This document shows positions 19,765-39,296 of a stretch of 39,296 nt of DNA, one piece after another. This stretch comes from a virus. Each line of letters begins with the position of its first letter. The first letter of the stretch is position 1. The notes beneath the pieces are model-generated. The model was not told the DNA's origin. It saw only the letters and a program-made list of their open reading frames with translations, and ran no database searches. The stretch spans positions 1-39,296 of the IMG/VR virus record IMGVR_UViG_3300024518_002571. One strand, 5' to 3'. The translations under genes and the position numbers were made by a program.

Positions 19765-21226
19765 ACTTCGTCCTCGTCAATCCGAGCTTGTGCCCCCAGG
19801 TGCCAACGGCGTAATCGTCCGCGGGCTCGAAGGTGTAATCGCGCTGCCATGCCCACATGCACGCGTAACGCAGCGCGTCCATCCCGTGGTCGTCCTTCTT
19901 CTTGGGCACGTCCTTGCGCGCGGTCTCTTCTGTCTTGGGCGTCTCCCACACGTACGCTGGGAACTCTTCTGCTGTGCACGTCGGCGCGTTGCGCTCGAGG
20001 AGCTTCGGGTCGGCATCGTGGCTGCGCGCGCCATCGAACAACATCACGTCCGGCACGCCCGTCTCCGCGTTCGGCTCAAGCCGCGAGAGCACCTGGTTGA
20101 TACCCGTGATCACGTCCTTGTTGGCGCCGATCGCGATGCGCCCCTGGTCCTTCTCGACGATGTAGTCGTTGAAGATCGAGATCGCCGAGGCGTCCGCGTA
20201 GTCGCACACGATCTGGTAGAGCTCGTACTTGGTGTGCATCTCAGCCGCGCGCTTGGCCCACCAGTTGGCGTTCTTGCCGGACATGTAGACCTCCTCGAGC
20301 AGGTACATGCGCTCGTCGCGGTCGACCCCCCACACCTGGAGGCAGCCGGGGTTGTCGACGCCGAAGTCCTGGGAGGCGAAGCACCACTCCATCTTCACCG
20401 GGCGCTTCATCGTCTGGAATTTCTTGGGATGCAGCACCCAGCTGTCGCCCTCCTTCTTGAGCTGGCCCTTGATGATGTGCTTGTCCTCGTCCCAGTCGCG
20501 GTAGATCACGCCCTCGCTCGTGACCCACTCGCCCAGGTACAGCCGCTCGTAGTCCGCGCCACGCAGCTCCTTGCGCAGCCGCTTCAGGTACCGCTGGCCC
20601 TTCGACGAGTCCGTCAGGAACGGGTTGTCGGCGTGCTCCGACTTCAGGCGCAGCGCCTTCCCGTCCTGCATGCGCTTGAGGATCCAGTGGTGCCGCGGCC
20701 CCGGGTTGCAGTCGCCGAGCAGCATCTGGAACGGGATCACGTAGTTCCGCAGCGCGCGGTGAACGGACTGCCACTCCTCCTCGGAGATCTCCGTGCACTC
20801 GTTGCAATACGCGATGTCGTACTCCGTCGAGAACAGCCGCGTGCGCTGATCCATCCCGCCCAGCACGATCTTCGACCCGTTGGGGTAGATGTAGTATTGG
20901 CGGTTGATGCGCCGCGGCCCGCGCAGGATCTGCGTGTACGAGGGGTAGGAGCGGCGGATGATCTTCTCCTCGAAGGTCTCGAGGAACGATTCGTTCAGCG
21001 AGACGCGCGTCTTGCGGAACACGAGGATCCGACACCCCGGGTAGAGCCTGCATGCGAGATGAAGGAGGTGCCCGAACCCGAACGACTTCCCCGTGCCAGC
21101 GGGACCGTCCATGATCAATTCAGGCACCTCGGCTTCACTCAACTCCACTTCATCCATCTCCCGCAACTTGCAGAAGACGGTGAACAGCTCGGCGACCGCG
21201 CCGCGGGGTTCGTACGATTCCCTCAA
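19745..21226 (-). CDS. terL: Terminase large subunit
   Basis: 493 codons, the normal length. Walker A GPAGTGKS at residues 41-48; the following basic segment (ILVFRKTRVSLNESF) fits the adenine-binding/motif Ia region. The Walker B-type strand is at 136-146 (YDIAYCNECTE), with Asn before the catalytic Glu143 where Asp is more usual; similar QE or NE forms occur in some phage terminases. The C-terminal RNase H-like nuclease is marked by QDFGVDNPG near residue 293, YADASAISIF near residue 355, and a final DALRYACMW helix. It drives headful or site-specific DNA packaging. The start ATG overlaps the preceding gene stop (ATGA). Confidence 0.95.
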   Translation of the reverse strand: MRESYEPRGAVAELFTVFCKLREMDEVELSEAEVPELIMDGPAGTGKSFGFGHLLHLACRLYPGCRILVFRKTRVSLNESFLETFEEKIIRRSYPSYTQILRGPRRINRQYYIYPNGSKIVLGGMDQRTRLFSTEYDIAYCNECTEISEEEWQSVHRALRNYVIPFQMLLGDCNPGPRHHWILKRMQDGKALRLKSEHADNPFLTDSSKGQRYLKRLRKELRGADYERLYLGEWVTSEGVIYRDWDEDKHIIKGQLKKEGDSWVLHPKKFQTMKRPVKMEWCFASQDFGVDNPGCLQVWGVDRDERMYLLEEVYMSGKNANWWAKRAAEMHTKYELYQIVCDYADASAISIFNDYIVEKDQGRIAIGANKDVITGINQVLSRLEPNAETGVPDVMLFDGARSHDADPKLLERNAPTCTAEEFPAYVWETPKTEETARKDVPKKKDDHGMDALRYACMWAWQRDYTFEPADDYAVGTWGHKLGLTRTKFGGIPA

Positions 21227-28261: not shown

Positions 28262-30282
28262 CAGGTGATCGTGATCGTGTGGGTGTTGGTGCCGGCGGCT
28301 GCGAGGACCGCGTTGCCCACGGGCTCCCAGAAGATCCCTTGGCGCGGGAACCAGTTGGCTGCGGCTGCTGCGGGCGCGCCGGTGAGCACCGCTGCCCCGT
28401 GTTCCCAGCGCGGCCAGAAGAGGTTCAGCCCCTCGTTCAAGTGCGCCGCCAGCCCGCCGTCCACCCCGGCTGTTGAGTTGGTGGCGGCATGCTCAGTCCA
28501 CCCCTGGCCGATGTTCGCCCCGCCGTCCTGGTTGGACCACCAGATGGGGTTCTGCAGCAGCGTCGTCGCGTTGCCCGGCGAGGTCAGCGTGGCGTTGTCG
28601 ACGTGGATCAGGAACCAGATGCGCAGGAGAGAGCGCACCGTGCCGTCAGGGAAGCGCACGTCCTCGGGGGTGATGCCGAAGTTGTGGTTCGCGCCCGAGT
28701 CGCTCGTGAGCCGCCGGTCACTCCAGACAGACCAGTTGCCCGTGGCGTGGGCCACGTAACTCGTCGACGCGTTCGCCTTCGTCACCGCAGCGACGCTCGT
28801 GAGCGTGGTGGGTGACTCGCGGTCGAACACCACGTGGTAGTCGAACCCCTGGCCGTTGTTGATCGTCTGGGGCGTGTCGAACTGGAAGCCACGCTCACGC
28901 TGCCCCAGGCGGATGAAGCGCGGCGCTGTCACCCCGGGCTCGAGGGTCACGAAGATGCTGAAGCGTGAGTAGTTGGCCAGCCTGACCTGGGACACGATGT
29001 CGTCACGCCCGCCGTGCTGCTTGCCGATGGCGTCGCAGCGGATGTACCCCGGCATGTTCGCGCCAGGTGACACCTTGACGTGGATTGCGGGGTCCCCCCA
29101 CGGGTCATTGACGTTGGTGGACTTGGTGATGAGCAGGGGCTCATCGGTGGGGATCGGGTTGTTGAAGGGGTTGTGGCCGGGCAAGGCGGGCCCAGGGCCC
29201 AGCGACATATTCGAGCGGTCCCCGAAGTTGGTCGTGGAGTGCAGCTCCACCGCGGGTGTGCTCGAGTAGTTCTTGTTCTCCTCCCCGATCGCGTCGTACG
29301 TCACCGTGGAGCGCCAGTCAGGGGAGCAGCTGGCGAGGTTCTCCTGGGACTGGTCGTCGAGCTCGTGGCGCAGGTTGACCACCACCGTGCGCCCCGCCAC
29401 GGCCCCTGGCCGCAGCTGGAGCCTGAGTGTGCCCGAGGACCCCGCGGCGGCGATGCTGGCCCCGCCTTGGGGGTCGTCCACCCAGTCGTAGTCCACCCCC
29501 TCGACGGCTGTGCTCGTGGCGTCAGCGACGGCATGGATCGCGAGCGCGTCCTCGTGGGTGCCCACGTCCCCCGCGGCCACATCCACCGTCATGGAGGCGA
29601 GCGCCCCTGGGGCTGGGGTGGAGCTCGCCACGTTGAAGTCGATCACCGGGGCGTTGGTGGTGGTGCGGATCCACACCTGCAGCAGGTTCGAGGAGTCCGA
29701 GAACGCGACCGTGGTGCCGAGGGGGTCGAGGAGCGGGGCGTTCGAGTTGTCGGCGTCCAGCGTCAGGGTGAGCAGGCGCTCGATGTGGTAGTCCCCCGTT
29801 GCGAGGGGGTCGATGGTTATCTGCTTTGTCTGCTCCCCTGCGCTGAACGTGATTGGGGACGTTCCTGCGGTGATCGAGTAGTGCGTGCCTGAGATGGCTG
29901 AGCCGCCTGTGGTGTAGGCGATGGTGCGCGTCTGTCCTGCGGGCACGGGCACGCCGAGGTCCACGTCGACGGTGAAGGCTGCGTGGCTGTCCTGGTAGTG
30001 GAAGACCGACGCCTTGCGGCCCAGAACGTTGGCGCCTGCGGTGGCTGGGTCCTGCTGCTCGGTGGTGATGACCTGGGCGGGGCGAAGGTTGGCCGGCTCG
30101 TCATAGCGGCTGCTCGACCAGAAGTTCAGGAAGCGCACGATGGGGATGGGGTCGACGACCTGCTGGTGCTCGGTGATGTCGACGGTGTAGGGGGCTGTGT
30201 ACCAGGGGGCGCCCGAGCTGAACGTCGCGGTGTCCCCCTGCTCGTCGAGGTAGCAGGTGTCGGTGTTCTCGGTGAAGGGCAT
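28261..30282 (-). CDS. Calx-beta-containing fibre protein
   Basis: 673 codons. Two Calx-beta-like domains: residues 97-195 (SGTHYSITAG, ITFSAGEQTKQITID, HIERLLTLTLD) and 214-312 (AVEGVDYDW, GTLRLQLRPGA, VVVNLRHE). The first fits the canonical Calx-beta pattern of GxxY, a Thr/Lys-Ile strand and an E-x-LTLTLD strand. The C-terminal half (residues 340-673) is beta-rich, with Trp/Asn/Gly segments and no recognised family. It shares its N-terminal design with the larger adhesin and probably belongs to the same fibre. The ATG directly follows the TAG of the spanin candidate. Confidence 0.75.
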   Translation of the reverse strand: MPFTENTDTCYLDEQGDTATFSSGAPWYTAPYTVDITEHQQVVDPIPIVRFLNFWSSSRYDEPANLRPAQVITTEQQDPATAGANVLGRKASVFHYQDSHAAFTVDVDLGVPVPAGQTRTIAYTTGGSAISGTHYSITAGTSPITFSAGEQTKQITIDPLATGDYHIERLLTLTLDADNSNAPLLDPLGTTVAFSDSSNLLQVWIRTTTNAPVIDFNVASSTPAPGALASMTVDVAAGDVGTHEDALAIHAVADATSTAVEGVDYDWVDDPQGGASIAAAGSSGTLRLQLRPGAVAGRTVVVNLRHELDDQSQENLASCSPDWRSTVTYDAIGEENKNYSSTPAVELHSTTNFGDRSNMSLGPGPALPGHNPFNNPIPTDEPLLITKSTNVNDPWGDPAIHVKVSPGANMPGYIRCDAIGKQHGGRDDIVSQVRLANYSRFSIFVTLEPGVTAPRFIRLGQRERGFQFDTPQTINNGQGFDYHVVFDRESPTTLTSVAAVTKANASTSYVAHATGNWSVWSDRRLTSDSGANHNFGITPEDVRFPDGTVRSLLRIWFLIHVDNATLTSPGNATTLLQNPIWWSNQDGGANIGQGWTEHAATNSTAGVDGGLAAHLNEGLNLFWPRWEHGAAVLTGAPAAAAANWFPRQGIFWEPVGNAVLAAAGTNTHTITIT

Positions 30283-30705
30283 CTATTCCTTCTTCCGGAG
30301 CCCCGGCACCTTCTCGAGCACGCCGAAGCGCTTGGCCAGGGCGTAGATGCACACCAGGAGGAGCAGCGCGCCCAGCCCGAGCAGCACCAGGATCGCGTCG
30401 TCGATCGTCTTGGGCACCTTGAGCGCCGCGTCCACCAGGCTGTCGTCTTCCTCCTGGGGCGCTGTGTTGACCGTGACGGGCTGCAGGTTGCCCGTGGCCG
30501 TTGTCACCTCGAGCCGGCGTATCGCCTCCAGGCTCTCCTTGTGCCGCGCCCGGTCGCCCGGTGACCAGGTCACCCCTGCGGTGACAGCCGCCGTGTCGAA
30601 GTCGGTGTCGCGGCCTTCGAAGTCGGAGTGACCGACGCCGGTGCCCACGGTGTAGGAGTCGGGCGCGGTGCAGCCGAGCAGGAGCAGGAGGAGTAGGGCC
30701 CTCAT
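30283..30705 (-). CDS. Putative unimolecular spanin (lipoprotein plus C-terminal membrane helix)
   Basis: 140 codons from the ATG at 30705, which overlaps the previous stop (ATGA). The N-terminus MRALLLLLLLGC carries a lipobox with Cys12; residue 13 is Thr, so no Asp retention signal is seen and outer-membrane sorting is expected. Residues 15-103 are a polar periplasmic part with beta-like stretches. Residues 104-124 form a single hydrophobic helix followed by a basic tail (KRFGVLEKVPGLRKKE) that should be cytoplasmic. Lipoprotein anchor at one end and inner-membrane helix at the other is the plan of u-spanins such as T1 gp11 (134 residues), which fuse the two membranes at the end of lysis. 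The function is inferred from this topology. Confidence 0.65.
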   Translation of the reverse strand: MRALLLLLLLGCTAPDSYTVGTGVGHSDFEGRDTDFDTAAVTAGVTWSPGDRARHKESLEAIRRLEVTTATGNLQPVTVNTAPQEEDDSLVDAALKVPKTIDDAILVLLGLGALLLLVCIYALAKRFGVLEKVPGLRKKE

Positions 30706-31106
30706 CGCCCCACCGCCGGCTTGAGGCCCCACCAGGCGTGGATCAGCTTCTTGCGGTCCCCGTTGGCGTCGGTCCCGAAGAGGTCGAGCTCGCCGGCGGC
30801 GATGGCTGCTGTCTGGATCTTGCCCGTGTCGGTGGACGAGAGGGTGGCGCGCAGCTGTCCGTTGGCGGCTGCACCCTCGATGGTGGCGGTGTAGGTGAAG
30901 ATCTCCTGGCCGGTGTTCGCGGGGCCTGAGTAGACGGCGCCTGCGAACGCGGTATCAAGCCACCCGGTGAAGTCGAGGGGTGTGGTGGCTGGGTTGCCGT
31001 TCTGGGTGGAGGCGTCGGAGCCCAGGGTGACGATGACGGTCTGGGTCTCGCGGCTCTTGATGAGGGGCCACTTGCAGCGGAGCGGGTCCGCGAAGCCAGC
31101 GCCCAT
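30702..31106 (-). CDS. Small beta-sandwich protein of baseplate/BppU-N type
   Basis: 134 codons. The order of a strand of Thr/Val (QTVIVTLG), PLDFTGW, an A-rich loop, GQLRATLSSTDTGKI and a final AGELDLFGTDANGDRKKLIHAWWG resembles the BppU N-terminal-type domain found in many phage baseplate or fibre proteins. It overlaps the spanin start by four bases and the previous stop by one. A role in the fibre or head surface is likely; function not shown. Confidence 0.65.
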   Translation of the reverse strand: MGAGFADPLRCKWPLIKSRETQTVIVTLGSDASTQNGNPATTPLDFTGWLDTAFAGAVYSGPANTGQEIFTYTATIEGAAANGQLRATLSSTDTGKIQTAAIAAGELDLFGTDANGDRKKLIHAWWGLKPAVGR

Positions 31107-31354
31107 CAGGGCACCCCCCCGTCGTCGTCGGGCAGGAGGGCTTTCAGGATCGGGCCCTTCAGGTCACGGATCCAGGAGATGGCTCTCTCCTGCGCGCGCC
31201 GGTTGGACACGAACCAGTTGGCCACGTCGTCGACGTGATCCTCGAGCCAGGCGATGACGAGCTCGGGGTGTTCGTTCAGCACCGCCTCTAGGACGGTGGG
31301 GAGGATCTCGGGGTTATCGACCTCGATGGAGGCCTTGAATACGGCCTGTGTCAC
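31106..31354 (-). CDS. Small helical protein
   Basis: 82 codons starting at GTG 31354, with AGGAAG eight bases upstream. The sequence is helical and acidic, with Leu/Val/Glu heptads (ILPTVLEAVLNEHPELVIAWLEDHVDDV) and no recognised family. A stop-start overlap (TGATG) ties it to the next gene. It heads the run of structural genes after a short gap. Confidence 0.55.
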   Translation of the reverse strand: MTQAVFKASIEVDNPEILPTVLEAVLNEHPELVIAWLEDHVDDVANWFVSNRRAQERAISWIRDLKGPILKALLPDDDGGVP

Positions 31355-31455
31355 CCATCGCGCTTCCTGCCCTCTCCCTGTGCTGCCCCCTGCAAACCCC
31401 CTCCTCGGGCTCTACTGCTCTACCATGCCGCCGAGTGGGCTGCAAGCCTTGCGCC

Positions 31456-31524
31456 TCACCACACCGCCCACACGCCCAGGCCCTCGGGCACGCGGTAGCG
31501 GATGACCTTGCGCGGCTCGTCCAT
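31456..31524 (-). CDS. Candidate 22-residue ORF
   Basis: ATG at 31524 lies two bases after the stop of the zinc-ribbon gene and has GAGGGA six bases ahead. It codes for 22 residues (MDEPRKVIRYRVPEGLGVWA, then VW) with a typical basic-amphipathic composition. The ribosome site and tight spacing argue for translation; length and lack of homology argue caution. The rest of the gap to 31354 holds only a trivial ORF. Confidence 0.4.
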   Translation of the reverse strand: MDEPRKVIRYRVPEGLGVWAVW

Positions 31525-31526
31525 GT

Positions 31527-31853
31527 TCAGTCCCTCATGGGTCCGAGGAGGACCGTCCAGCAGCCCATGCAGACCTGGACCTGTGCGTGCGCGTGGCTGG
31601 CGGGGATCCCTTCCCCGGTGTGTATTGCCTCCATGACCTCCAGGTAGGGGAAGAGGAGGCTGTACATGAAGCGGAGCTCCTTGTTGCAGGCGGGGCAGGG
31701 GTCGGCCCCCTTGTTCGGCATGAGCCTGCCGGCGAGCTTGGTCTCGGCGTCCTTGACGAGCTCGCTGGCCTCCTTGTCGGTGAGGGTGGCGGTGTCCTTC
31801 TTGGCCTTGTCGAGGGAGCGCTTGATGGTCTCTGCATCGTCGGGCCGTCTCAC
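31527..31853 (-). CDS. Zinc-ribbon-like small protein
   Basis: 108 codons. C53-x2-C56 and C95-x2-C98 form a probable zinc site; residues 1-45 are helical and charged (TIKRSLDKAKKDTATLTDKEAS). The GTG at 31853 overlaps the HTH-gene stop (GTGA) and has AAAGGAG five bases upstream, so translation is coupled. Function unknown; perhaps a regulatory or DNA-binding accessory. Confidence 0.65.
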   Translation of the reverse strand: MRRPDDAETIKRSLDKAKKDTATLTDKEASELVKDAETKLAGRLMPNKGADPCPACNKELRFMYSLLFPYLEVMEAIHTGEGIPASHAHAQVQVCMGCWTVLLGPMRD

Positions 31854-32068
31854 TGGTGCTCCTTTGGGATGGGTGTGGGTGCGCCGTCGTCGAGCCAGCG
31901 TTGCAGTCTAACGGGGTCCCATCGGTTCGCGCTGCCGATGCGGTATGGCCTGGGGAAGAGGTCCAGCGCGACGAGCCTGGTGACGGAGCGGGGTGCCATG
32001 TGCAGGTGCTCGGCGACCTCGGCGGTGGTCATCAACATGGCGGTGTTTCGCGGGTTCTGGGGGTACAT
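31850..32068 (-). CDS. Helix-turn-helix protein, AlpA/excisionase-like
   Basis: 72 codons if the ATG at 32068 is used. The segment MTTAEVAEHLHMAPRSVTRLVALDLFPRPYRIGSANRWDPVRLQRWL matches the AlpA/excisionase winged-helix pattern (start of HTH, then an aromatic-Pro wing and RW-x6-W). No good ribosome site precedes 32068; a GTG at 32116 would overlap the preceding mini-ORF by eight bases and add 16 residues of unremarkable sequence. Probably a transcription regulator of this small operon. [The quoted segment is divided in the protein around residues 15-58.]. Confidence 0.65.
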   Translation of the reverse strand: MYPQNPRNTAMLMTTAEVAEHLHMAPRSVTRLVALDLFPRPYRIGSANRWDPVRLQRWLDDGAPTPIPKEHQ

Positions 32069-32108
32069 GGGGTCTACGCGGCCGCGGCTAGGTCCCCGAG
32101 GGTGGGAT

Positions 32109-32192
32109 TCACACACCCACCGTGTTCGCTCCCTCGACTCTCCAGTCTCGGAGTGCCGCGCGCGTCGCGGCGCCGCCTCGGGGTGCGGTCAT
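32109..32192 (-). CDS. Candidate 27-residue ORF after the Lar-like gene
   Basis: The ATG at 32192 overlaps the Lar-like stop (ATGA). The 27 residues include MTAPRGGAATRAALRDW and have no similarity known to me. Its own ribosome site is not evident, so translation would depend on coupling. Treated as a possible mini-gene or leader for the HTH gene. Confidence 0.3.
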   Translation of the reverse strand: MTAPRGGAATRAALRDWRVEGANTVGV

Positions 32193-32344
32193 GCGTTCCA
32201 CCTGTCGTGCGCGGAGGTGTGCTCATCCCCTACAACCATGACCCCGCAGGGCTTGTCTCCGCTCTGGTTTAGACAGGTGACGGTGTTGTGTTTCACGTTC
32301 TCTATGGCCTGAGCACCGCAGAGCCAGCAGGGCTTGAGGGTCAT
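32189..32344 (-). CDS. Lar-like zinc-finger mini-protein
   Basis: 51 codons. The MTLKPCWLCGAQA start and the C6-x2-C9, C24, C33 cysteines, followed by a closing AHDRWNA, match the layout of the Lar family (restriction-alleviation protein: LKPCPFCG ... EAIxxWN). AGGAAGG lies six bases before the ATG. Lar proteins can reduce host type I restriction, but small zinc proteins of this shape occur widely in phages with no known activity, so the function is uncertain. The start overlaps the 20-residue ORF stop (ATGA). Confidence 0.6.
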   Translation of the reverse strand: MTLKPCWLCGAQAIENVKHNTVTCLNQSGDKPCGVMVVGDEHTSAHDRWNA

Positions 32345-32403
32345 CTGCCGCCTTCCTGCCCTCGCTCGAGATCGGTCATGGCTTGGCTGCGGCGACTCAG
32401 CAT
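32341..32403 (-). CDS. Candidate 20-residue leader ORF
   Basis: The ATG at 32403 has the strongest ribosome site in this region (AAAGGAGG about six bases ahead) and lies directly behind the conserved operon leader. It codes for MLSRRSQAMTDLERGQEGGR and its stop overlaps the Lar-like start (ATGA). It may be a leader peptide that couples translation of the operon, or a short gene in its own right. Confidence 0.45.
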   Translation of the reverse strand: MLSRRSQAMTDLERGQEGGR

Positions 32404-32450
32404 CTCAGTCCTCCTTTGGGTGTTGGTAGTGGCCCCCCGGGGGTTCCCAG
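32404..32450 (-). promoter_or_regulatory. Conserved operon leader, copy 3
   Basis: On the minus strand: CCCCCGGGGGG palindrome (core 32434-32443), a short spacer with CTACCAACACC, then AAAGGAGG immediately before the small-gene operon. This matches the leaders at 36301-36360 and 37238-37296 on the plus strand. Likely acts in the 5' UTR, in translation initiation or mRNA stability. Confidence 0.6.
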
Positions 32451-32731
32451 CTCGCAGGTCCCACTCGTGGCAGATCCCTACCGCCCGGCAGTACCTGGTC
32501 AAGCTGGGCAGGGGGCCGTAAGTAGATTACTACCTATATAAGCCCGTGCAAGCCTTTTGCGCTTGAACCTGTCGGGGGATACCCTGGGTCTCAGCCCTGG
32601 GAAGACCAGACCTGGGAGATATAGGGGGTTCCCGGTGGCCTTGTTGTTCCCGGTTTCAGGTGAGCGACCTTTCGGTCGCCGAGTGCGCCGAACCGAGTAC
32701 GCCTGAACCGAGCACCTGAACCAGAGCCCTT
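32404..32731. other. Structured intergenic region
   Basis: 328 bases without a convincing gene; a 78-codon frame on the minus strand (32499-32735) is open, but its product is unlike a natural protein. It contains: an AT-rich island at 32518-32545 that could hold the operon promoter on the minus strand (TTGCAC, 16 bases, TAATCT); a perfect stem-loop GCGACC-TTTC-GGTCGC at 32664-32679, which on the minus-strand RNA closes with a GAAA tetraloop; an outer inverted repeat GGTTTCAGGTG/CACCTGAACC (32652-32662 and 32713-32722, one bulge); and repeated CCTGGG/GGTCT elements at 32580-32620. It separates the terminase-small accessory block from the mini-ORF operon and may include a terminator. Confidence 0.55.
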
Positions 32732-33037
32732 TCACCGTCGCCCCTTCGCCGCGCCCCCCCGCGCCCAGCGCGAGCCTACGAGCCCCCCGAGTTCTGGAAC
32801 AAGCGTTCCAGTTCGTTTCTTGAGAGCGCGGTGAGGTCTGGTCCCAGATCTGGGACAGATGTCGGTGGAGATCTGCTCGAACGCCGCGACCTGCTCGTCG
32901 GTCAGGGGCTCGACCACCCGCACCGGCTCACCCGGCACGTACAGCTCGTAGACGACGACCTCCTCAGGCTTCGCCTTCCCCACCACGGCGATACCCAGCA
33001 GACCCAGCGCGCGCTTGATGAGCGAGCGACGGTTCAC
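32732..33037 (-). CDS. Small protein with twin-arginine-like N-terminus
   Basis: 101 codons from GTG 33037, which overlaps the previous stop (GTGA). The N-terminus (MNRRSLIKRALGLLGIAVVG) fits the twin-arginine consensus R-R-x-L-I-K followed by a short hydrophobic core at 10-20. The rest (residues 24-70, EEVVVYELYVPGEPVRVVEPL) is a small beta/alpha domain, then a basic, Gly/Arg-rich tail. The in-frame extension upstream to 33127 lies inside the holin-like gene and is probably not used. No family recognised. Confidence 0.55.
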   Translation of the reverse strand: MNRRSLIKRALGLLGIAVVGKAKPEEVVVYELYVPGEPVRVVEPLTDEQVAAFEQISTDICPRSGTRPHRALKKRTGTLVPELGGLVGSRWARGGAAKGRR

Positions 33038-33222
33038 AGCTGCACCCGCTGCGTCTTCGAGTTGACTTTGTAAGCGAGCACAAAACGCAGGAGTCCAAAC
33101 AGCACCACCAGCGCCACCACCATCCACACGCCGCCGCTGCCGCCCTCCACGGACTGAAGGCCCGCCTGCTCGATCGCGAGCTCCAGGGCCTGCTCAGTCA
33201 CCAGCAAGATCAGATGTTCCAT
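33034..33222 (-). CDS. One-helix membrane protein, possible holin
   Basis: 62 codons from ATG 33222; the upstream frame to 33453 lies inside the small-terminase gene. Residues 1-22 form an amphipathic helix (MEHLILLVTEQALELAIEQA), residues 32-50 a single membrane helix (VWMVVALVVLFGLLRFVLA), and the tail is basic (YKVNSKTQRVQL). The size and arrangement are compatible with a small holin, but many other small phage membrane proteins look like this. It overlaps the terminase gene by 29 bases and the next start by four. Confidence 0.5.
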   Translation of the reverse strand: MEHLILLVTEQALELAIEQAGLQSVEGGSGGVWMVVALVVLFGLLRFVLAYKVNSKTQRVQL

Positions 33223-33712
33223 CGTCCGCGTCCCCGTCGCCCACAGCCTGCTGCTGTGTCCGCACCAGCGCGCGCAACTCCTTGTTCTCCATCTCGAGCT
33301 TCTTGAACGCTTTCCGGTACGTCTCCTCCCCCAGGAGGATCGGAGCGTCCGTGTGCTGCGTGCGCTCCGCCTTGTCGCGTGCCCACCGGGCCATCGAGAA
33401 CGACTCGGGGAACTGACGCTCAAGCAGCCACGCCGCCGCCTGCCAGTGCTCACCCGCGTGCGAACCCACCGTCTGCACGAGCGAGCACACCGCCGTCGCC
33501 TGCGCCTTCTCCACGTCCTGGCGGAAGCTCTCGTGCTCGGAGAACGGCACCTTCCCCATGCGCAGCCAGTAGTTCACCGCCTCCCGGTGAATCCCAAGAG
33601 CTCGACACGCGATCTTCAACGGCACGCTGACACGCAAGAGCGCGAAGAGCGCCTGCTTGTCCGCCTCGGTGATCTCGTGCGCACGTCGCCCGCCGCCATT
33701 CATCCCCACCAT
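33194..33712 (-). CDS. Small terminase candidate
   Basis: 172 codons. The N-terminal third has a helix-turn-helix pattern (KQALFALLRVSVPLKIACRAL ... HREAVNYWLRMG) suited to DNA recognition; the middle has the WQAAAWLLERQFPESF motif common in small terminases of several phage groups; the C-terminal part is a coiled coil (YRKAFKKLEMENKELRALV) for oligomerisation, then an acidic tail. It should recognise the packaging site and load the large subunit. It lies 12 kb from the large terminase. GGAG is seven bases ahead of the ATG at 33712. Confidence 0.7.
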   Translation of the reverse strand: MVGMNGGGRRAHEITEADKQALFALLRVSVPLKIACRALGIHREAVNYWLRMGKVPFSEHESFRQDVEKAQATAVCSLVQTVGSHAGEHWQAAAWLLERQFPESFSMARWARDKAERTQHTDAPILLGEETYRKAFKKLEMENKELRALVRTQQQAVGDGDADDGTSDLAGD

Positions 33713-33716
33713 GTCG

Positions 33717-33866
33717 TTACTCCAGCCGGATCTGCATGATCCACTCCGGGTCCGTCACAAGGTTGGGGCGACACAGCCCCATCAAGAGCCACGCCTCGTC
33801 CCCATGCCACACCACCGACGCCCAGGAGAGTGAGCTCGCCCTGAGCCAACTGGGCCACACGCCCAC
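33717..33866 (-). CDS. Trp-rich 49-residue protein
   Basis: GTG at 33866 (or 33860) and TAA at 33717, ending just before the small-terminase ribosome site. The product has six Trp in 49 residues (GVWPSWLRASSLSW, VVWHGDEAWLLMGL) and a central MGLCRPN loop. GGAAGAG lies about ten bases upstream, inside the GroES end. No family recognised; the Trp-rich amphipathic layout suggests membrane contact or protein binding. It is too short to be certain. Confidence 0.5.
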   Translation of the reverse strand: MGVWPSWLRASSLSWASVVWHGDEAWLLMGLCRPNLVTDPEWIMQIRLE

Positions 33867-33870
33867 AGGC

Positions 33871-34212
33871 CTAGCGCTCTTCCATGACGCCGAGGATGTC
33901 CGGCTCCGCCGTCAAGCGGTAGGCGACATCACCGATGCGGATGTCCTCCGCGCCTATGTCGAAGGGCGCCAAGAGCACGCGCTCGCCGTGGTGGTACACC
34001 GCAGCCGAGCGCGTCTTGCCGTCAACCGAAAGAAAACCCGGTCCCGTGCTGCACACCGTCCCCGTCACCGACACGCCAGTCTTCGGCTTGATGATCCCCC
34101 CCGGCGTCTTCTCCTCCTCGGGGTCGAGCTTCACCAGCACCCTCCCCACCCCGGGGAACAGGCGCGTCTCGGCGGGAAGGCAGATGGGCGGCGATGTCTG
34201 TGTCTGCTGCAT
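33871..34212 (-). CDS. GroES-like co-chaperonin
   Basis: 113 codons. Core GRVLVKLDPEEEKTPGGI at 23-40 includes the canonical start of the Cpn10 barrel and the mobile loop (residues 32-46, KTPGGIIKP) that docks to GroEL; the last strand is DILGVMEER. Some Gly positions and the Tyr/Glu of the barrel are kept. It should replace or supplement host GroES during capsid folding, as T4 gp31 does. The ATG at 34212 lies inside the upstream twin-arginine gene, which stays open to 34022, giving an unusually long overlap of 191 bases in another frame; no Shine-Dalgarno precedes it. Confidence 0.85.
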   Translation of the reverse strand: MQQTQTSPPICLPAETRLFPGVGRVLVKLDPEEEKTPGGIIKPKTGVSVTGTVCSTGPGFLSVDGKTRSAAVYHHGERVLLAPFDIGAEDIRIGDVAYRLTAEPDILGVMEER

Positions 34213-34678
34213 GGTAGTAGTTGTGGTAGGAGGCGTAATCGAGCCAGTGGGTTTCGGAGGGCGGCGTCATGATCATCGGGGTCGTCTTGTAGATGATCCC
34301 CCACGCCGCGTCGGCGGGCGAGGAGTAGTACCCCACGTGCTCGAACTTGAGCCGCCAGCGGGTCAGGTCGACCGGCGTACCGCCGCTGGTGTACTTGTAG
34401 CTCCAGGTGCCTGGGGCTGGGTCGGTCTCGTTGATGAACACTCGGATCGAGTACGGGGCGGGCTCGAACGAAAACATGCGCTCCATGGCGCAGTTGAGCG
34501 TGTCCCCTACCAGGTTGTAGGGGGAGCGGCCCGCTCGGCGCAGACCGTCGCCGTACACGAACGTCTTCTTGTTCGTGATCGGCTCGCGATCAGGGAGCAG
34601 TAGCTTCGGAGCAACCACCGCCGCAGCCGCGCCGCCCAGGAGGGCGCCGATGAATCCGCGTCGCGTGGGGGCGCTCAC
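34022..34678 (-). CDS. Twin-arginine-signal protein, C-terminus overlapping GroES
   Basis: 218 codons from GTG 34678, which overlaps the previous stop (GTGA) and has GAGGTG five bases ahead. The N-terminus (TRRGFIGALLGGAAAAVVAP, residues 5-24) fits a twin-arginine signal with R6-R7. Residues 30-160 are a beta/alpha domain rich in aromatic residues (PAPYSIRVFINETDPAPGTW, HWLDYASYHNYYHAADT) of no recognised family. From about residue 156 the frame overlaps GroES and becomes Arg/Gly-rich, so this end may be a shadow; translation might instead shift frame into GroES. Confidence 0.55.
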   Translation of the reverse strand: MSAPTRRGFIGALLGGAAAAVVAPKLLLPDREPITNKKTFVYGDGLRRAGRSPYNLVGDTLNCAMERMFSFEPAPYSIRVFINETDPAPGTWSYKYTSGGTPVDLTRWRLKFEHVGYYSSPADAAWGIIYKTTPMIMTPPSETHWLDYASYHNYYHAADTDIAAHLPSRRDAPVPRGGEGAGEARPRGGEDAGGDHQAEDWRVGDGDGVQHGTGFSFG

Positions 34679-34899
34679 GTCCACACCTCGACAGCCCGCA
34701 GAGCCGGGACCGGGGGAACGTCCCCGACTTCGAGCCAGGCTCGGACCGCGCGCGTGGCGTCGTCGAGGTTCGCGCAGTACCAGACGACCTCGTCCGGCGT
34801 GCACGGAGCTCGTGAGACGATGAACCGGACGGCGCCGTCCTCATCGACGACGCGCGTCACCTCGACCGTCTGGACTCTCCGGGTCCTGCGGTGCTGCAT
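34675..34899 (-). CDS. Small protein of unknown function
   Basis: 74 codons. Strong ribosome site AAGGAG six bases before the ATG, inside the end of the preceding gene (59-base overlap). The sequence has a basic N-terminus (MQHRRTRRVQTVEVTRVV) and a compact alpha/beta middle (VVWYCANLDDATRAVRAWLE). The stop overlaps the next start (GTGA). Function unknown. Confidence 0.55.
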   Translation of the reverse strand: MQHRRTRRVQTVEVTRVVDEDGAVRFIVSRAPCTPDEVVWYCANLDDATRAVRAWLEVGDVPPVPALRAVEVWT

Positions 34900-35143
34900 C
34901 TGCTTCTCCTTCTCCGCCGAACAGCGCTCGTGCGCGGGCTAGTAGCCCCCCTTCTTGGGTTTCGGCTTCCTGGTCTTCGGCTTCGGCTTCGGCCTGGACG
35001 GCCGGGGCGTCGACCCCTTCTTCGGTGGCTTCTGTAGCATATTCGGCCCCCTGCCGCTTGCGGAGGTTCATCACCCGCTGGGTGCGTCCGTACCGACGCT
35101 TGCGCGCGCTCATGCACACGCCGCTCGTTCTGATCTCGTCCAT
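34841..35143 (-). CDS. Basic/acidic low-complexity protein
   Basis: 100 codons. CGGAG six bases ahead of the ATG. The N-terminus is strongly basic (MSARKRRYGRTQRVMNLRKR, residues 11-30), the middle is acidic (AEAEAEDQEAETQE) and there is a short amphipathic helix (GLLARARALFGGEGE). No family recognised; the split charge suggests nucleic-acid or chaperone-like binding. Overlap of 59 bases with the next gene. Confidence 0.55.
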   Translation of the reverse strand: MDEIRTSGVCMSARKRRYGRTQRVMNLRKRQGAEYATEATEEGVDAPAVQAEAEAEDQEAETQEGGLLARARALFGGEGEADAAPQDPESPDGRGDARRR

Positions 35144-35146
35144 CGT

Positions 35147-35533
35147 CTACTCCGGTGCCGTCTCGCGGAAAGTGATCCCGAGCGCCTCGGCCTCGCCTGG
35201 TTCGAAGAGCCGCGCCGCGCCCGGGTGGATCGGGTCGCCCCAGTCGGTGGTCTCGTCGATGTCCTCCGAGCGGTCGACGTACCTCACACGCCCGCCCTCA
35301 ACCGCGTAGGCCCAGACCGGGATCGTGGTCCCCGTGTTGCCCGCCGCGACCACGACGAGCTGCGCGCTGGCCGCTGCCTTGCCGCCCACCAGGGCCTCGT
35401 CCGTCGTCGCGCGGATGAACCCGCTCGGGTCACCTGGGGCGCCGACCAGCGCCTGCACGCGGACAGCCTCCGACAGGGAGGGGCACGAGGCGAGGAGAAC
35501 GGGGAGAAGGGCTCCCAGGAGACGACAACGCAT
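35147..35533 (-). CDS. Putative outer-membrane lipoprotein
   Basis: 128 codons from ATG 35533, which has GGAG seven bases upstream and gives a clean signal (MRCRLLGALLPVLLASC) with lipobox LASC and Cys17; a start at 35578 overlaps the nuclease-like stop (ATGA) but adds 15 polar residues and has no ribosome site. The mature part is beta-rich and acidic (FIRATTDEALVGGKAAAS; AVEGGRVRYVDRSED). A role in blocking re-infection or in lysis is possible, but no family was recognised. Confidence 0.65.
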   Translation of the reverse strand: MRCRLLGALLPVLLASCPSLSEAVRVQALVGAPGDPSGFIRATTDEALVGGKAAASAQLVVVAAGNTGTTIPVWAYAVEGGRVRYVDRSEDIDETTDWGDPIHPGAARLFEPGEAEALGITFRETAPE

Positions 35534-35574
35534 GGGGATGCTCCGCTTGGTTACCAGGGGCTCCTCCTCCCCGC

Positions 35575-35958
35575 TCATATCATGCCAGGAAGTGACCAGT
35601 CGCTGTCAAGGGTGATCGTCGTGACCCGCGGCCGCCAGAGAGCTCCTGTGGAGCCAGGAGACGCGTCAGGCTGCACGTACCGCCTCCAGGCCCAGACCTC
35701 CAACTCACCGCCGGCCCGGAGCCACCCGCGCGCCCTGGGCTCCTTCAGGATCTTCGTGGTGCGGGCCGCGCCGTTGGGCCCCGAGGTCGCCTGGACGCCC
35801 AGGATCCGAGAGTGTTCCACGTGGAACGCCAGCACGTCGATCACCCCGTACAGGTCGCGCCGCACCCGCGTCTTGGGCACCCAGCGCTCCACCACGTCAG
35901 CCACCCACCCCGTGTCCCGGAGAAGCTCAAGCGTGCGCGACGTAGGTGAGGAGGCCAT
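35575..35958 (-). CDS. PD-(D/E)XK nuclease-like small protein
   Basis: 127 codons. The run RTLELLRDTGWVADVVERW, then RVRRDLYGVIDVLAFHVE (D41), ILGVQATSG (Q56) and AARTTKILKEP has the layout of small PD-(D/E)XK enzymes of phages (resolvase- or restriction-like): a helix with Glu, the Asp strand, then a Glu/Gln-x-Lys strand. Here Glu is replaced by Gln56, and the Lys may be K69 in the next helix. Activity is therefore uncertain. It is the first gene of the minus-strand run after the divergent region; the ATG at 35958 has only a weak ribosome site. Confidence 0.6.
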   Translation of the reverse strand: MASSPTSRTLELLRDTGWVADVVERWVPKTRVRRDLYGVIDVLAFHVEHSRILGVQATSGPNGAARTTKILKEPRARGWLRAGGELEVWAWRRYVQPDASPGSTGALWRPRVTTITLDSDWSLPGMI

Positions 35959-36020
35959 GATCTTACCGAGGGCTTACCAATGCCTAGGGTATGTGCCTAT
36001 ATCTACCTAGGATCCTAAGT

Positions 36021-36048
36021 AATATACTAAGGGAGTTGACAACGTGAA
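36021..36048 (-). promoter_or_regulatory. Candidate minus-strand promoter
   Basis: TTCACG (36043-36048, minus strand) and TATATT (36021-36026) spaced 16 bases apart, a reasonable sigma-70 match, about 60 bases before the nuclease-like gene, in an AT-rich island of a GC-rich genome. An overlapping near-palindrome CCTAGGATCCTAAG (36006-36019) could be an operator. Confidence 0.35.
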
Positions 36049-36300
36049 CGCGAGACCGGGCCGGTGATGGTCTGGGCGCACAGTCGCCGCGGGGCGAGGC
36101 AACACACCGAGCCGAAGCCCCGAGGGGTCACCCACCATAGACGGGGAGAAGACTGAAACACCGGGGGCGCGGACCATCGCTGCCCCCGTCGTACACCTCG
36201 CATGCCCCAGACTCAACCATGCGGGTGAGCCTGCCCATAGCTTAGGGCCGCGCGTCAAGGTCTGGAGTCGCGCGTGAGCCTCTCTATGCGGCAGGCGCTT

Positions 36301-36360
36301 ACACCCCAAGCCCCCGGGGGGTCAACACCGGGAGCAGCCAACACCAACAAGGAGAACAAC
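36301..36360 (+). promoter_or_regulatory. Conserved operon leader, copy 1
   Basis: ACACCCC, then CCCCCGGGGGG, GTCAACA, CCAACACCAACAAGGAG and a short spacer directly before the ATG at 36361. It shares about 45 aligned bases with the leader at 37238-37296 and the core with the minus-strand copy at 32404-32450. It holds the ribosome site (AAGGAG) of the operon. Confidence 0.65.
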
Positions 36361-36660
36361 ATGCCTCGAGTCCTGCAGCGGAACATGCTGAACGGGGCGG
36401 TGCTCGACTGCATCGCCCAGAGCCTCGTGGAGGCCTTCCACAACGACGGCTCATGGAAGGCGTGGAAGTTCGGCACCGGCGAGGTACGCCTCTCCAACTC
36501 GAACGCCGACCTCAGCTGCGACCTGTCCATCGTCAACTGCGGCGACGACGGGATCGCGATCTACATCGACTGCCCCGGCAAGCGCGCCGAGGTCATCGAG
36601 CGCCACTTGCGCGCCCGCCGCTTCCTCCCGCCCGTCCCTGTGAAAGGGGGTGTGGGATGA
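36361..36660 (+). CDS. Small plus-strand protein, alpha/beta
   Basis: 99 codons, beginning right after the conserved leader; an earlier in-frame ATG at 36274 would put the leader inside the gene and is rejected. The product has an alpha/beta pattern (NGAVLDCIAQSLVEAFHND, VRLSNSNADLSCDLSIVN, IDCPGKRAEVIERHLRARRF) of no recognised family. Stop overlaps the next start (ATGA). Confidence 0.65.
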   Translation: MPRVLQRNMLNGAVLDCIAQSLVEAFHNDGSWKAWKFGTGEVRLSNSNADLSCDLSIVNCGDDGIAIYIDCPGKRAEVIERHLRARRFLPPVPVKGGVG

Positions 36661-36899
36661 GCGGCGCCTCCGCGGAATACCAACTCAAGAGGCTTCGGGG
36701 CCACTACCCAGACGCCACCATCACCCATCGCGTCGTCAACGTGGACGACGGACCCGGGTTCTCGTACTACAAGGTGGACATCGACCCCGATGGTAATGCG
36801 TGCACCACGCGCAACCTGTCTGACCGCGTGTCCCTCGACGTGTACGTGACGGCCGCGATCGACGCCTCGTTCGTGCACGGCGAGAAGGTGACACCGTGA
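36657..36899 (+). CDS. Small plus-strand protein
   Basis: 80 codons; ATG 36657 overlaps the previous stop by four bases. Sequence has an EYQLKRLRGHYPDATIT start and FSYYKVDIDPDGNA strand, with no recognised family. It is the middle gene of a coupled trio. Confidence 0.6.
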   Translation: MSGASAEYQLKRLRGHYPDATITHRVVNVDDGPGFSYYKVDIDPDGNACTTRNLSDRVSLDVYVTAAIDASFVHGEKVTP

Positions 36900-37135
36900 G
36901 GCCCGCCGTGAAGGTCGGCGCGATCGTCGTCTACTTCGGACACGGTCGCCGCACAGGGCTCCGCGTGGGGCTCGTGCGCACGCTCAGGAAGTACGACGCC
37001 ACGGTGCAGGACATAGACCCCAGCACCGACGGCAAGACAGCCTCGGCACGCTACCGGGGCGCCAAGCACAGAGTCCGACTCGACCGCATCACCGGCATGC
37101 AATACCGCGGCCGGGTGCGCAGCGTCTCCGGGTGA
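36896..37135 (+). CDS. Small basic plus-strand protein
   Basis: 79 codons from GTG 36896 (overlap GTGA). Short beta-rich, strongly basic protein (VGAIVVYFGHGRRTGLRVG; RYRGAKHRVRLDRITG) with the look of an SH3-like or other small nucleic-acid-binding barrel. Function unknown. Last gene of the first plus-strand group. Confidence 0.6.
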   Translation: MRPAVKVGAIVVYFGHGRRTGLRVGLVRTLRKYDATVQDIDPSTDGKTASARYRGAKHRVRLDRITGMQYRGRVRSVSG

Positions 37136-37146
37136 CTCTTGTTGGT

Positions 37147-37223
37147 AGGGTGGGCGACGGCCCGGGGGAGGAGCTTGAAAACTCGCCTCCCCCGCCCTCA
37201 ACCAGGAAGGGCCGCCGCCCACC
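37147..37223. other. Two-tier 24-bp hairpin
   Basis: Outer arms of 16 bases (37147-37162 and 37208-37223) pair with one mismatch; the adjoining inner arms of 8 bases (37163-37170 and 37185-37192) pair perfectly, with a 14-base loop and a 15-base bulge on one side. It is the strongest inverted repeat in the window. It lies between two plus-strand groups, 12 bases after the stop of the last gene. No T-tract follows, so it is not a standard intrinsic terminator; an RNase III site, attenuator or DNA cruciform are alternatives. Confidence 0.85.
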
Positions 37224-37237
37224 CGTTCAGCGACCCG

Positions 37238-37296
37238 CACACCCCGCGCCTCGGGGGTCAACAACTGGGGCTACCAACACCAACAAGGAGAACGAC
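37238..37296 (+). promoter_or_regulatory. Conserved operon leader, copy 2
   Basis: ACACCCC, CCTCGGGGG, GTCAACA, CTACCAACACCAACAAGGAG, then the ATG at 37297. About 45 bases align with copy 1 (36301-36360) with few differences. It follows the two-tier hairpin and begins the second plus-strand group. Confidence 0.65.
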
Positions 37297-37371
37297 ATGA
37301 ACTACTGCCCCTCTTGCAACATCCTGGGCAGCAGCGAGCACACGAGCCTGCGCGATCAGGGGGCGATCTGA
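37297..37371 (+). CDS. 24-residue zinc-knuckle-like mini-protein
   Basis: ATG directly behind the conserved leader and AAGGAG; codes for MNYCPSCNILGSS and 11 more residues (C4-x2-C7). The stop overlaps the next start (TGATG). Size makes it uncertain as a stable protein; it could be a leader peptide for the group. Confidence 0.45.
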   Translation: MNYCPSCNILGSSEHTSLRDQGAI

Positions 37372-37556
37372 TGAAGCGCGCCGATTACAAGAACCCGTAC
37401 CGGCTGAGTGACGAAGACCTCGACCGGCTGATCGCCGAACTCGACCACCCCCCGGTCATGTCTGGCACCGCGATCCAGGCGGGCCTGTTCCTGCTGGGCC
37501 TGATGGTGTTCGTTGTGATTATGGTCTGGGCGTTCGTGGTGAGGGTGGTGCTGTGA
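37371..37556 (+). CDS. Small membrane protein
   Basis: 61 codons from ATG 37371 (TGATG overlap). Residues 1-28 are charged (MKRADYKNPYRLSDEDLDRL), followed by a single membrane helix at about 33-58 (AIQAGLFLLGLMVFVVIMVW) ending in AFVVRVVL. Function unknown. The stop overlaps the next start (GTGA). Confidence 0.6.
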   Translation: MKRADYKNPYRLSDEDLDRLIAELDHPPVMSGTAIQAGLFLLGLMVFVVIMVWAFVVRVVL

Positions 37557-38092
37557 CCTGCCCCACCTGCGGACGACGGCCGAGTGAGCGGATTGGCGTT
37601 GTGGTTGAAGAGCAGGGCGACGACGAAGTCTTTCTGGGGAGTGACGCTTGTCCCGATCCCTGCCATGACGCCGCCGACGAGGCGCCAGAGCGCATCGCTG
37701 AGCTGGAAGAAAACTGGTCACATGTCTGCGGCTACCTCGGGCTGATTGAAGAGGAGCCGAGTGTCGAAGACGTGGAGCAGGCGATAAGCGTCCTGCGCGC
37801 CCAGCGCGACGAGCTGGAGAAGGAGGTTGAGCGGCTGCGGCAAGAGGGTCTTCAGGGATCTCTATCTGACTGGAAAGACTTGCGCGCTCAGCGCGACGAG
37901 TTGCTGGTGGCGCTGCGGCCGTTCGCGGAGCATTGGGGCGAATGGCTGAAAGCGCGAGCCGACCACACGCACCCGCAGTGGGGACGTAAGCACGGGAGGC
38001 CCGACTGGCGTAACTACATGACCGTCGGGAAGCACGTTGCTGCAGCCCGCGCCGTGATCGTCAACGCGAAGAAGACGGAGGTGAAGCCGTGA
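37553..38092 (+). CDS. Zinc-finger/coiled-coil protein
   Basis: 179 codons from GTG 37553. C3-x2-C6 and C33-x3-C37 suggest one zinc site; residues 55-120 form a coiled coil with repeated LRAQRDEL, and the C-terminus (AARAVIVNAKKTEVKP) closely matches the last residues of the following gene. It overlaps the next start by four bases. Function unknown. Confidence 0.6.
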   Translation: MTCPTCGRRPSERIGVVVEEQGDDEVFLGSDACPDPCHDAADEAPERIAELEENWSHVCGYLGLIEEEPSVEDVEQAISVLRAQRDELEKEVERLRQEGLQGSLSDWKDLRAQRDELLVALRPFAEHWGEWLKARADHTHPQWGRKHGRPDWRNYMTVGKHVAAARAVIVNAKKTEVKP

Positions 38093-38712
38093 GCCCCTAC
38101 ATCATCGAATCCACCGTCGGGGCCGAACTTTGGTCCGGCAACGCCGCCTCGTTGCGCGAGGCACTCGACCAGGCGGTAGCGGCGCGCGCCAACCTCGCGG
38201 GCGCCAACCTCGCGGACGCCTACCTCGCGCGCGCCAACCTCGCGCGCGCCAACCTCGCGGGCGCCACCCTCGCGCGCGCCAACCTCGAGCGCGCCAACCT
38301 CGCGGACGCCAACCTCGCGGACGCCAACCTCGCGGGTGCCAACCTCGAGCGCGCCAACCTCGCGGACGCCACCCTCGCGGGCGCCACCCTCGCGCGCGCC
38401 AACCTCGCGGGTGCCAACCTCGCGGACGCCAAAGGGCTGCGATATGCGCAAGGTGGTTGGCTCCTGCGCTACTCGTGGAATCTGGTCGCTCGCGAGGTTG
38501 GCGAGCCACGGTTGCGGTATGGGTGCGAGGAGTTCTCGCTATCTGACTGGAACGAGCAGCTCGTAAAGGAGTTGTGCAAGAAGCACGAGCCCGAAAACCA
38601 AAACACCTACTCCCGTGCTATCACGGCGCTCGTTGCCTACTGCCTGGAAGTCGACGCGGTGTACGCCCGCGCCGCGATCGCCAACGCGGAGAAGACGGGG
38701 GTGAAGCCGTGA
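38089..38712 (+). CDS. Pentapeptide-repeat protein
   Basis: 207 codons from GTG 38089. Sixteen near-perfect pentapeptides A(N/T/Y)L(A/E)x at residues 34-113 predict a right-handed quadrilateral beta-helix of about four coils, as in Qnr/MfpA-type DNA-mimic proteins. A C-terminal domain of about 90 residues (YAQGGWLLRYSWNLV; SLSDWNEQLVKEL) follows, ending in YARAAIANAEKTGVKP. It might bind a host enzyme such as gyrase by mimicking DNA, but negative charge is modest here. It overlaps the next start (GTGA). Confidence 0.85.
   Translation: MSPYIIESTVGAELWSGNAASLREALDQAVAARANLAGANLADAYLARANLARANLAGATLARANLERANLADANLADANLAGANLERANLADATLAGATLARANLAGANLADAKGLRYAQGGWLLRYSWNLVAREVGEPRLRYGCEEFSLSDWNEQLVKELCKKHEPENQNTYSRAITALVAYCLEVDAVYARAAIANAEKTGVKP
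38188..38427 (+). repeat. 15-bp pentapeptide-coding tandem repeat
   Basis: Sixteen copies of a 15-base unit close to GCCAACCTCGCGGGC, coding for A-N-L-A-x. The third codon position also varies little, and the unit produces long open frames in other frames that are not genes. Confidence 0.9.
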
Positions 38713-39296
38713 GCCTCGCCTGGCACTTCCTCGACGAGAAGGGACTCCTACGCAACGGCGACGCCCCGCCAGAGAACGGCGTCCCGCTGATTCACGAGGG
38801 CGCCCTCGAGTTGTGCGTTTCCGGGCTGCACGCAAGCGAGAAAGCGCGTGACGCGCTGATGTTCGCGCCGGGACCAATCATCTGCCGCGTCGAGTGCAGC
38901 GGCGATATCTTGCGCGAGAGCGACAAGCTCGTGTGCTGTGAGCGCACAATCCTTTGGCGCGCGGACGCAACGGACACGCTGCGCGCGTTCGCGCGATGGT
39001 GCGCGCTGGAAGTAGCAAGTCTTTGGGACATGCCGCAGGTTGTGCGCGAATACCTGGAGACGGGCGACGAGCCCAAGAGGGCCGCAGCCATGGACGCAGC
39101 CTGGGACGCAGCCAGGGCCGCAGCCTGGGCCGCAGCCTGGGACGCAGCCATGGACGCAGCCATGGACGCAGCCAGGGACGCAGCCAGGGACGCAGCCAGG
39201 GCCGCAGCCAGGGACGCAGCTAGGGCCGCAGCCAGGGCCGCAGCCAGGGACGCAGCCAGGGCCGCAGCCTGGGACGCAGCCTGGGACGCAGCCAGG
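38709..39296 (+). CDS. Protein with DUF7666-like N-terminus and Ala-rich tandem repeat (partial)
   Basis: 196 codons to the window edge, still open. The N-terminal domain (SLAWHFLDEKGLLRNGDAPP, LCVSGLHASEKARDALMFAP, IICRVECSGDI, DKLVCCERTILW) matches a phage domain I associate with DUF7666: an LxxGDGR-like start, LHAS, RV...G and DKLV-ERTIL. From residue 125 an (A/D)-A-A-(R/W/M) repeat runs to the edge. GTG 38709 overlaps the pentapeptide gene stop by four bases. Such repeats follow this domain in many phages; function unknown. Confidence 0.8.
   Translation, partial: MSLAWHFLDEKGLLRNGDAPPENGVPLIHEGALELCVSGLHASEKARDALMFAPGPIICRVECSGDILRESDKLVCCERTILWRADATDTLRAFARWCALEVASLWDMPQVVREYLETGDEPKRAAAMDAAWDAARAAAWAAAWDAAMDAAMDAARDAARDAARAAARDAARAAARAAARDAARAAAWDAAWDAAR
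39081..39296 (+). repeat. 12-bp Ala-rich tandem repeat
   Basis: Eighteen units of (GCC/GAC)GCAGC(C/T)(AGG/TGG/ATG), coding for (A/D)AA(R/W/M). It continues past the window edge. The predicted product is a long Ala-rich helix. Confidence 0.9.

Follow-up and report, generated by a model that had tools for sequence, protein, structure and literature searches.

Why do small genes of unrelated sequence in a single phage fragment begin with nearly the same few dozen bases? The question is raised by IMGVR_UViG_3300024518_002571, an uncultivated virus record of 39,296 bases and 67% GC (the window, hereafter), which is a fragment of a tailed phage. A sequence-only reading had described one conserved leader in front of three operons on both strands, before the starts at 36361 and 37297 (plus strand) and 32403 (minus strand). 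We think it fairly likely that the repeat is a start-associated leader for translation initiation, real in two copies and perhaps in a third.

Two closely similar leaders before unrelated genes

The repeat is clearest in two plus-strand copies, each of which runs into a start codon:

36302..36363, plus strand: leader copy A, composed of a GC-rich box, GGGGGTCAACA and CCAACACCAACAAGGAG, ending at the ATG at 36361
37238..37299, plus strand: leader copy B, ending at the ATG at 37297

The two copies are 81% identical over 62 nt without a gap, and self-blastn aligns 47 nt of them at 87% (E 2e-5), which bears out the earlier claim of an alignment of about 45 bases. Their local alignment score is 64, as compared with 26 for the best ordinary pair of starts in the window. 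The likeness ends at the start codon, and the proteins encoded downstream are unrelated. CCAACACCAACAAGGAG occurs exactly twice, and allowing up to three mismatches yields three sites where 0.07 would be expected. The repeat holds a Shine-Dalgarno (SD) core, AAGGAG, and about 40 further conserved nt, and lies behind gaps of 402 bp (copy A) and 161 bp (copy B), both exceeding the >50 bp taken as a criterion for the start-associated sequences (SAS) of other phages.

Local duplication of a junction segment, by which one copy would have arisen from the other, is plausible because a second duplicated junction is found in the same plus-strand gene group. At this junction (38045-38095 / 38665-38715; 92% over 51 nt) the duplicated stretch covers common C-terminal codons, GAAGCCGTGA and the start that follows, and among 990 pairs of starts only it (score 68) and the A/B pair exceed 29. 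Copies A and B might be mere by-products if such a local duplication happened recently, with nothing in particular maintaining them, and the second junction, which also reaches start codons, is in keeping with such an account. However, of the 12 positions at which A and B differ, 11 precede the core, where the CA-rich stretch runs into the SD, and one falls between the core and the ATG; the CA/SD part is almost unchanged, and divergence is concentrated in the GC-rich part, as under selection for a ribosome site. We therefore regard the by-product account as improbable.

A degenerate third copy and the palindrome

The minus-strand start has a less faithful version:

32401..32443, minus strand: degenerate third copy C, CCCCCGGGGGG and CTACCAACACCCAAAGGAGG, ending at the ATG at 32403; weak, just above background

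Copy C (32429->32403) repeats the 11-mer CTACCAACACC, equally far from the ATG, together with AAGGAG, which stands at good spacing in all three copies, and with an indel between. Aligned with the 37297 leader it scores 29, where the best background pair among the 990 reaches 26 and 0.04% of random 60-mer pairs reach 29. Its palindrome matches that of 36361 with a score of 23, a background value, and the distance from palindrome to CA-rich stretch is not constant either (3 nt as opposed to roughly 16-18 nt). The unit headed by this weak copy runs into structural genes. With one mismatch allowed, the palindrome CCCCCGGGGG is found at 8 sites in the window versus 6.4 expected, that is, at chance frequency, and the copy at 37238 (copy B), in which the palindrome is broken, is not among the eight; we rejected the palindrome as the key element on these grounds. 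Of the arrangement that had been described at three starts, the 36361/37297 repeat is confirmed, the minus-strand member is weak and the palindrome is at chance.

Predicted accessibility and a probable role in translation initiation

Under local folding, the three leader starts rank second to fourth of 45 for the unpaired probability of the initiation region (0.72, 0.70 and 0.59; median 0.43), and when long-range pairs are allowed the same three rank 2, 5 and 6. Copies A and B are also first and second among the 45 starts in ACA/CAA/AAC triplets, with copy C tied for third. In the mechanism that we propose, the core would be the CA-rich CCAACACCAACA running into the strong SD AAGGAG, six to seven bases before the ATG. 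The CA-rich stretch would stay single-stranded in a messenger of 67% GC, and the 30S subunit would land there before SD pairing. Upstream hairpins or the GC-rich box would fence the leader off from the remaining transcript, and separate promoters further upstream would set transcription. Leader B, lying inside the plus-strand transcript after the 161-nt gap, would free the later genes from dependence on overlapping stop and start codons.

Read upstream of 36361 and 37297, the two frames stay open as far as GTG 36274 and GTG 37132, respectively, and the box might be coding, with the repeat encoding A-P-x-G-S-T-x-G-A-x-N-T-N-K-E-N-x-M from these upstream GTG starts. Both copies share one reading frame, their differences fall 4/2/6 by codon position, and GTGA overlaps, in one of which GTG 37132 lies, are typical of this gene group. 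By codon score and by GC at the three codon positions, however, the sequence is non-coding-like, especially before 37297: the frame upstream of that start has a per-codon score of -0.25, where the 1% coding limit is 0.08, and its GC is flat by codon position. A well-spaced SD lies right before the ATG in both copies, and copy C is out of register. The upstream open frames are not coding-like, most clearly before 37297; together with the indel in copy C, this argues that selection acts on RNA or DNA and not on a peptide, and we consider a coding box very unlikely.

Promoters and transcription units

Two candidate promoters were recognized in the region, both on the minus strand:

32519..32548, minus strand: probable promoter of the 32403 unit, TTGCAC-16-TAATCT inside TAGTANNNTACTTA
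36016..36048, minus strand: probable promoter of the 35958 unit, TTCACG-16-TATATT inside TAGTANNNTACTTA

AT content per 30 bp peaks at 36001-36030 (21 of 30) and 32519-32548 (19 of 30), with 18 in the next-ranking stretches. Both spots carry TAGTANNNTACTTA on the minus strand, no other mismatch-free site exists, and each site places a -35-like hexamer sixteen bases before TANNNT; judged by these sequence features, they are probably minus-strand promoters. The AT patch at 36001-36030 may serve the plus strand as well. Transcripts from a promoter at 32519-32548 would begin near 32519-32516, at the head of a strong hairpin. In 31900-39296, only one promoter-like match was obtained, at 36048-36021 on the minus strand. 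The likely promoters sit outside the leaders: two of the copies have one 100-330 bp upstream, and the third has none in its vicinity.

The conserved box itself contains no -10/-35-like hexamers in a sigma-70-type test, and 37297 has neither a promoter-like site nor an AT-rich patch before it. Promoter function of the shared box is therefore improbable, and 37297 probably lies in the same transcript as 36361. These data do not support three operons, since 37297 lacks a promoter-like site or AT patch and the "gene" at 32403 is a 20-codon open reading frame (ORF) with a poor coding score. The proposal of a shared promoter plus untranslated region (UTR) survives in its second half, as a 5'-UTR and ribosome-site module, and fails in its first, the hexamers being absent and the likely promoters lying elsewhere. 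A mobile module in the usual sense is not indicated, for there are no ends, no flanking repeats and no copies found in relatives or elsewhere.

The box could instead be a DNA element, namely, a phage promoter or operator made of the GC palindrome and GGGGGTCAACA, through which a phage regulator would control the small-gene groups jointly. Three points would suit such an element: A and B stay alike for about 30 nt before the CA stretch, copy B is without any other promoter-like site, and the extended SAS (ESAS) of cluster K mycobacteriophages contain SigA-like promoters with suspected regulator binding (PMC11373665). The missing hexamers, the chance frequency of a palindrome that is broken in copy B, and the placement elsewhere of the likely promoters with their common TAGTANNNTACTTA core make it unlikely.

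Hairpins and a possible switch at copy B

Predicted structures upstream of the leaders differ in strength, and one short segment is complementary to a leader:

32438..32517, minus strand: strong RNA hairpin directly upstream of copy C, rank 8 among 90-nt windows
37147..37225, plus strand: strong RNA hairpin between the preceding gene and copy B, rank 5 on its own strand and rank 1 on the opposite strand
36220..36308, plus strand: predicted hairpin before copy A, z -0.55, no stabler than shuffles
37136..37148, plus strand: CTCTTGTTGGTAG, directly after the preceding stop codon, a 9-nt perfect complement of leader B

The first hairpin, held in a 151-nt stretch of -70.4 kcal/mol (z -3.78), probably has its start at or close to the 5' end of the mRNA, and it ends beside the CA/SD leader of 32403. 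As an intrinsic terminator, the hairpin at 37147-37225 was rejected, there being no T run after the GC hairpin (no U run in the RNA). When a stable 5' stem-loop or RNase III site was considered, strong hairpins were found before 32403 and 37297, and that before 36361 was not significant. Insulation of the leaders by hairpins is a possibility.

At copy B, the GU-rich CTCTTGTTGGTAG might mask the CA/SD leader about 125 nt downstream, across the strong hairpin. A ribosome ending at 37135 would then cover CTCTTGTTGGTAG and couple the genes over 161 nt, an arrangement that can coexist with a translation-initiation leader. The perfect 9-nt complementarity (p 0.002 versus shuffles, in one of three leaders tested) and its pairing in both the minimum-energy and the centroid folds point in this direction, and translational coupling via RNA unfolding is an established model (PMC12548453). 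On the other hand, the complementarity was found post hoc and in one of the three copies, it allows two alternative pairing registers, and there are no relatives for covariation, so that we regard the switch as improbable.

Occurrence in relatives and in other phages

No close relative emerged when viral contigs were searched by single sequence with the portal, the large terminase (TerL), the protein at the position of the major capsid protein (MCP) and the 36361 protein, and megablast of 30000-39296 against phages gave no match. Alignment of TerL collected 80 relatives, the closest of which (L152; 39% in TerL, with matching portal and MCP-position proteins) yielded nothing that matches the genes around the leaders. 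Leader copies did not occur beyond chance in 25 records of TerL relatives or in 869 kb of loci, and the closest related contig stops short of the homologous region. The earlier description of the cassette as phage-specific is not contradicted by these searches. Matches to GGGTCAACA...CCAACA.CAACA in viral contigs all lacked the SD-ATG arrangement, and many lay inside ORFs.

The core pattern is more widespread. At least 100 stretches in public virus contigs carry CAACA.CAACAAGGAG followed by ATG; many of these are polyglutamine coding, and 21 of 54 non-redundant matches have non-coding upstream sequence. Such leaders recur in many unrelated phages, and bacterial genomes gave 23 matches to a stricter pattern, several of them before apparent gene starts. 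This recurrence suggests that the CA/SD core is a favoured design, probably a convergent one. Start-adjacent repeats (>=34/45 nt) before unrelated sequence were found in 7 of 224 loci (2.26 Mb), the window being one of the seven.

Two other records have repeats of a comparable kind. In IMGVR_UViG_3300027759_000220 (36,379 bases; L266-L285), a conserved box, ACTGCTTCGGAAAG..GAGAAGCAAAGCCGATATATGGGTGTAAC, is matched 22 times on the same strand. Most of these matches precede gene starts, and many are followed by CCAACAACAACAACAAGGAG and then ATG; some are in tandem, and the copies in two loci tested matched no Rfam family. In IMGVR_UViG_3300035662_000018 (69,142 bases; L286-L305), a CTCAGGAAAGTATAATGATCTCA...CACGACGAAAGGAC-ATG cassette has a ribosome-site motif that is matched 26 times, mostly with a TATAAT-like box upstream; it is a start-associated promoter-plus-ribosome-site repeat. 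The repeats of both records resemble the present leaders in being start-adjacent and in preceding unrelated genes, but differ from them in number and, in the latter record, in the visible TATAAT box.

Several observations weigh against a translation-initiation leader. There are only two good copies, the third being barely above background, and none of the portal, TerL, MCP-position, 36361-protein and megablast searches found a relative covering the leader region. The full-length fold of copy B pairs part of the CA stretch with the upstream TGTTGGTAG, which would lower access. Upstream hairpins are not enriched at the CAA leaders of other phages relative to other starts (p 0.39), which speaks against insulation, and a general unit of hairpin plus CAA leader was rejected for this reason. 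Finally, A/B conservation reaches some 30 nt beyond the needs of a ribosome site; a feature other than SD accessibility may be conserved as well, or the duplication may be of recent date.

Gene context of the window

From 36361 onwards the fragment carries plus-strand genes up to its end, most of them overlapping by four bases (ATGA/GTGA). The genes and ORFs around the leaders, and those that identify the fragment, are as follows:

36361..36660, plus strand: 99-residue protein, family unknown, with copy A at its head
36657..36899, plus strand: 80-residue protein, 4-nt overlap with the preceding gene
36896..37135, plus strand: 79-residue protein (or 75 residues from 36908), overlapping the preceding gene
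37297..37371, plus strand: 24-residue ORF, with copy B at its head
37371-37556, 37553-38092, 38089-38712, plus strand: overlapping genes after the 24-residue ORF
32341..32403, minus strand: 20-codon ORF with the third copy at its head, overlapping a 51-codon ORF; poor coding score
33194-33712, minus strand: small terminase
33871-34212, minus strand: GroES-like co-chaperonin
19745-21112, minus strand: TerL
17657-19522, minus strand: weak portal match

No Rfam families and no tRNAs were found in the window. No start is more open than that of the GroES-like gene, at 34212, which nevertheless has no SD (TACCACAACTACTACCATG). The gene at 38089-38712 encodes a pentapeptide-repeat protein, and is followed by 38709-39296 (plus strand), whose product has Ala/Asp-rich repeats in 12-nt steps and matches two PHROG families of unknown function. 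At the other end, a 2006-codon ORF (3-6023, minus strand) matches very large phage proteins of unknown function over its C-terminal 500 residues (phrog_14770, phrog_616), and an exact 56-bp direct repeat (6037-6092 / 7108-7163) lies within a single gene, 6027-7406 (minus strand).

Relation to known systems and significance

SAS, described in cluster K mycobacteriophages and cluster EF Microbacterium phages, are ribosome-site repeats conserved beyond the SD (PMC3203893, PMC7302621). Like them, the present leaders are near-identical short repeats within one genome that supply a ribosome site before the starts of unrelated genes, with conservation beyond the SD, long upstream gaps and mostly small non-structural genes downstream. 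In contrast to SAS, they consist of a CA-rich stretch and AAGGAG instead of GGGATAGGAGCCC or GGGAAAGGACCCC, number 2-3 in this fragment versus 10-19, and have upstream hairpins that are not a shared inverted-repeat sequence. The cluster K consensus GGGATAGGAGCCC, with up to three mismatches, gave 20 matches in the window versus 14.5 expected, none of them at the leader starts; the shared 17-bp inverted repeats and SigA-like promoter of cluster K ESAS were likewise absent, the hairpins differing between copies. The leader therefore fits the SAS kind, yet stands outside the cluster K and EF sequence families; it is ordinary in kind and new in sequence.

In Salmonella, experiments have established that ACA motifs ahead of the SD enhance translation of yifK and dppA: their replacement lowered yifK expression by up to 90%, and that of four ACAs in dppA caused an over 100-fold cut (PMC3879156). 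The leaders here resemble the yifK, dppA and gltI enhancers in their clustered ACA motifs immediately upstream of the SD (PMC3879156). Those three are single chromosomal leaders targeted by the small RNA (sRNA) GcvB, whereas no sRNA is known for the phage leaders. The enhancer of phage T7 gene 10 is A/U-rich. The gene 10 ribosome site also joins an SD to an upstream enhancer segment and gives strong initiation (PMC8748333), but is a single site, unlike the repeated leaders described here.

SAS have been reported from few actinobacterial phage clusters, and their role is not settled (PMC3203893, PMC12699233). For work of this kind, the locus offers a caution, in that a GC-rich palindrome before a gene is not automatically a shared control element. 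If the switch at copy B were true, it would amount to a reusable phage leader whose use depends on translation of the gene before it. A CA-rich version in an unrelated phage, together with the recurring CAACA.CAACAAGGAG leaders, favours a role in translation, at least for this version of the leader, which is directly testable with simple reporter fusions.

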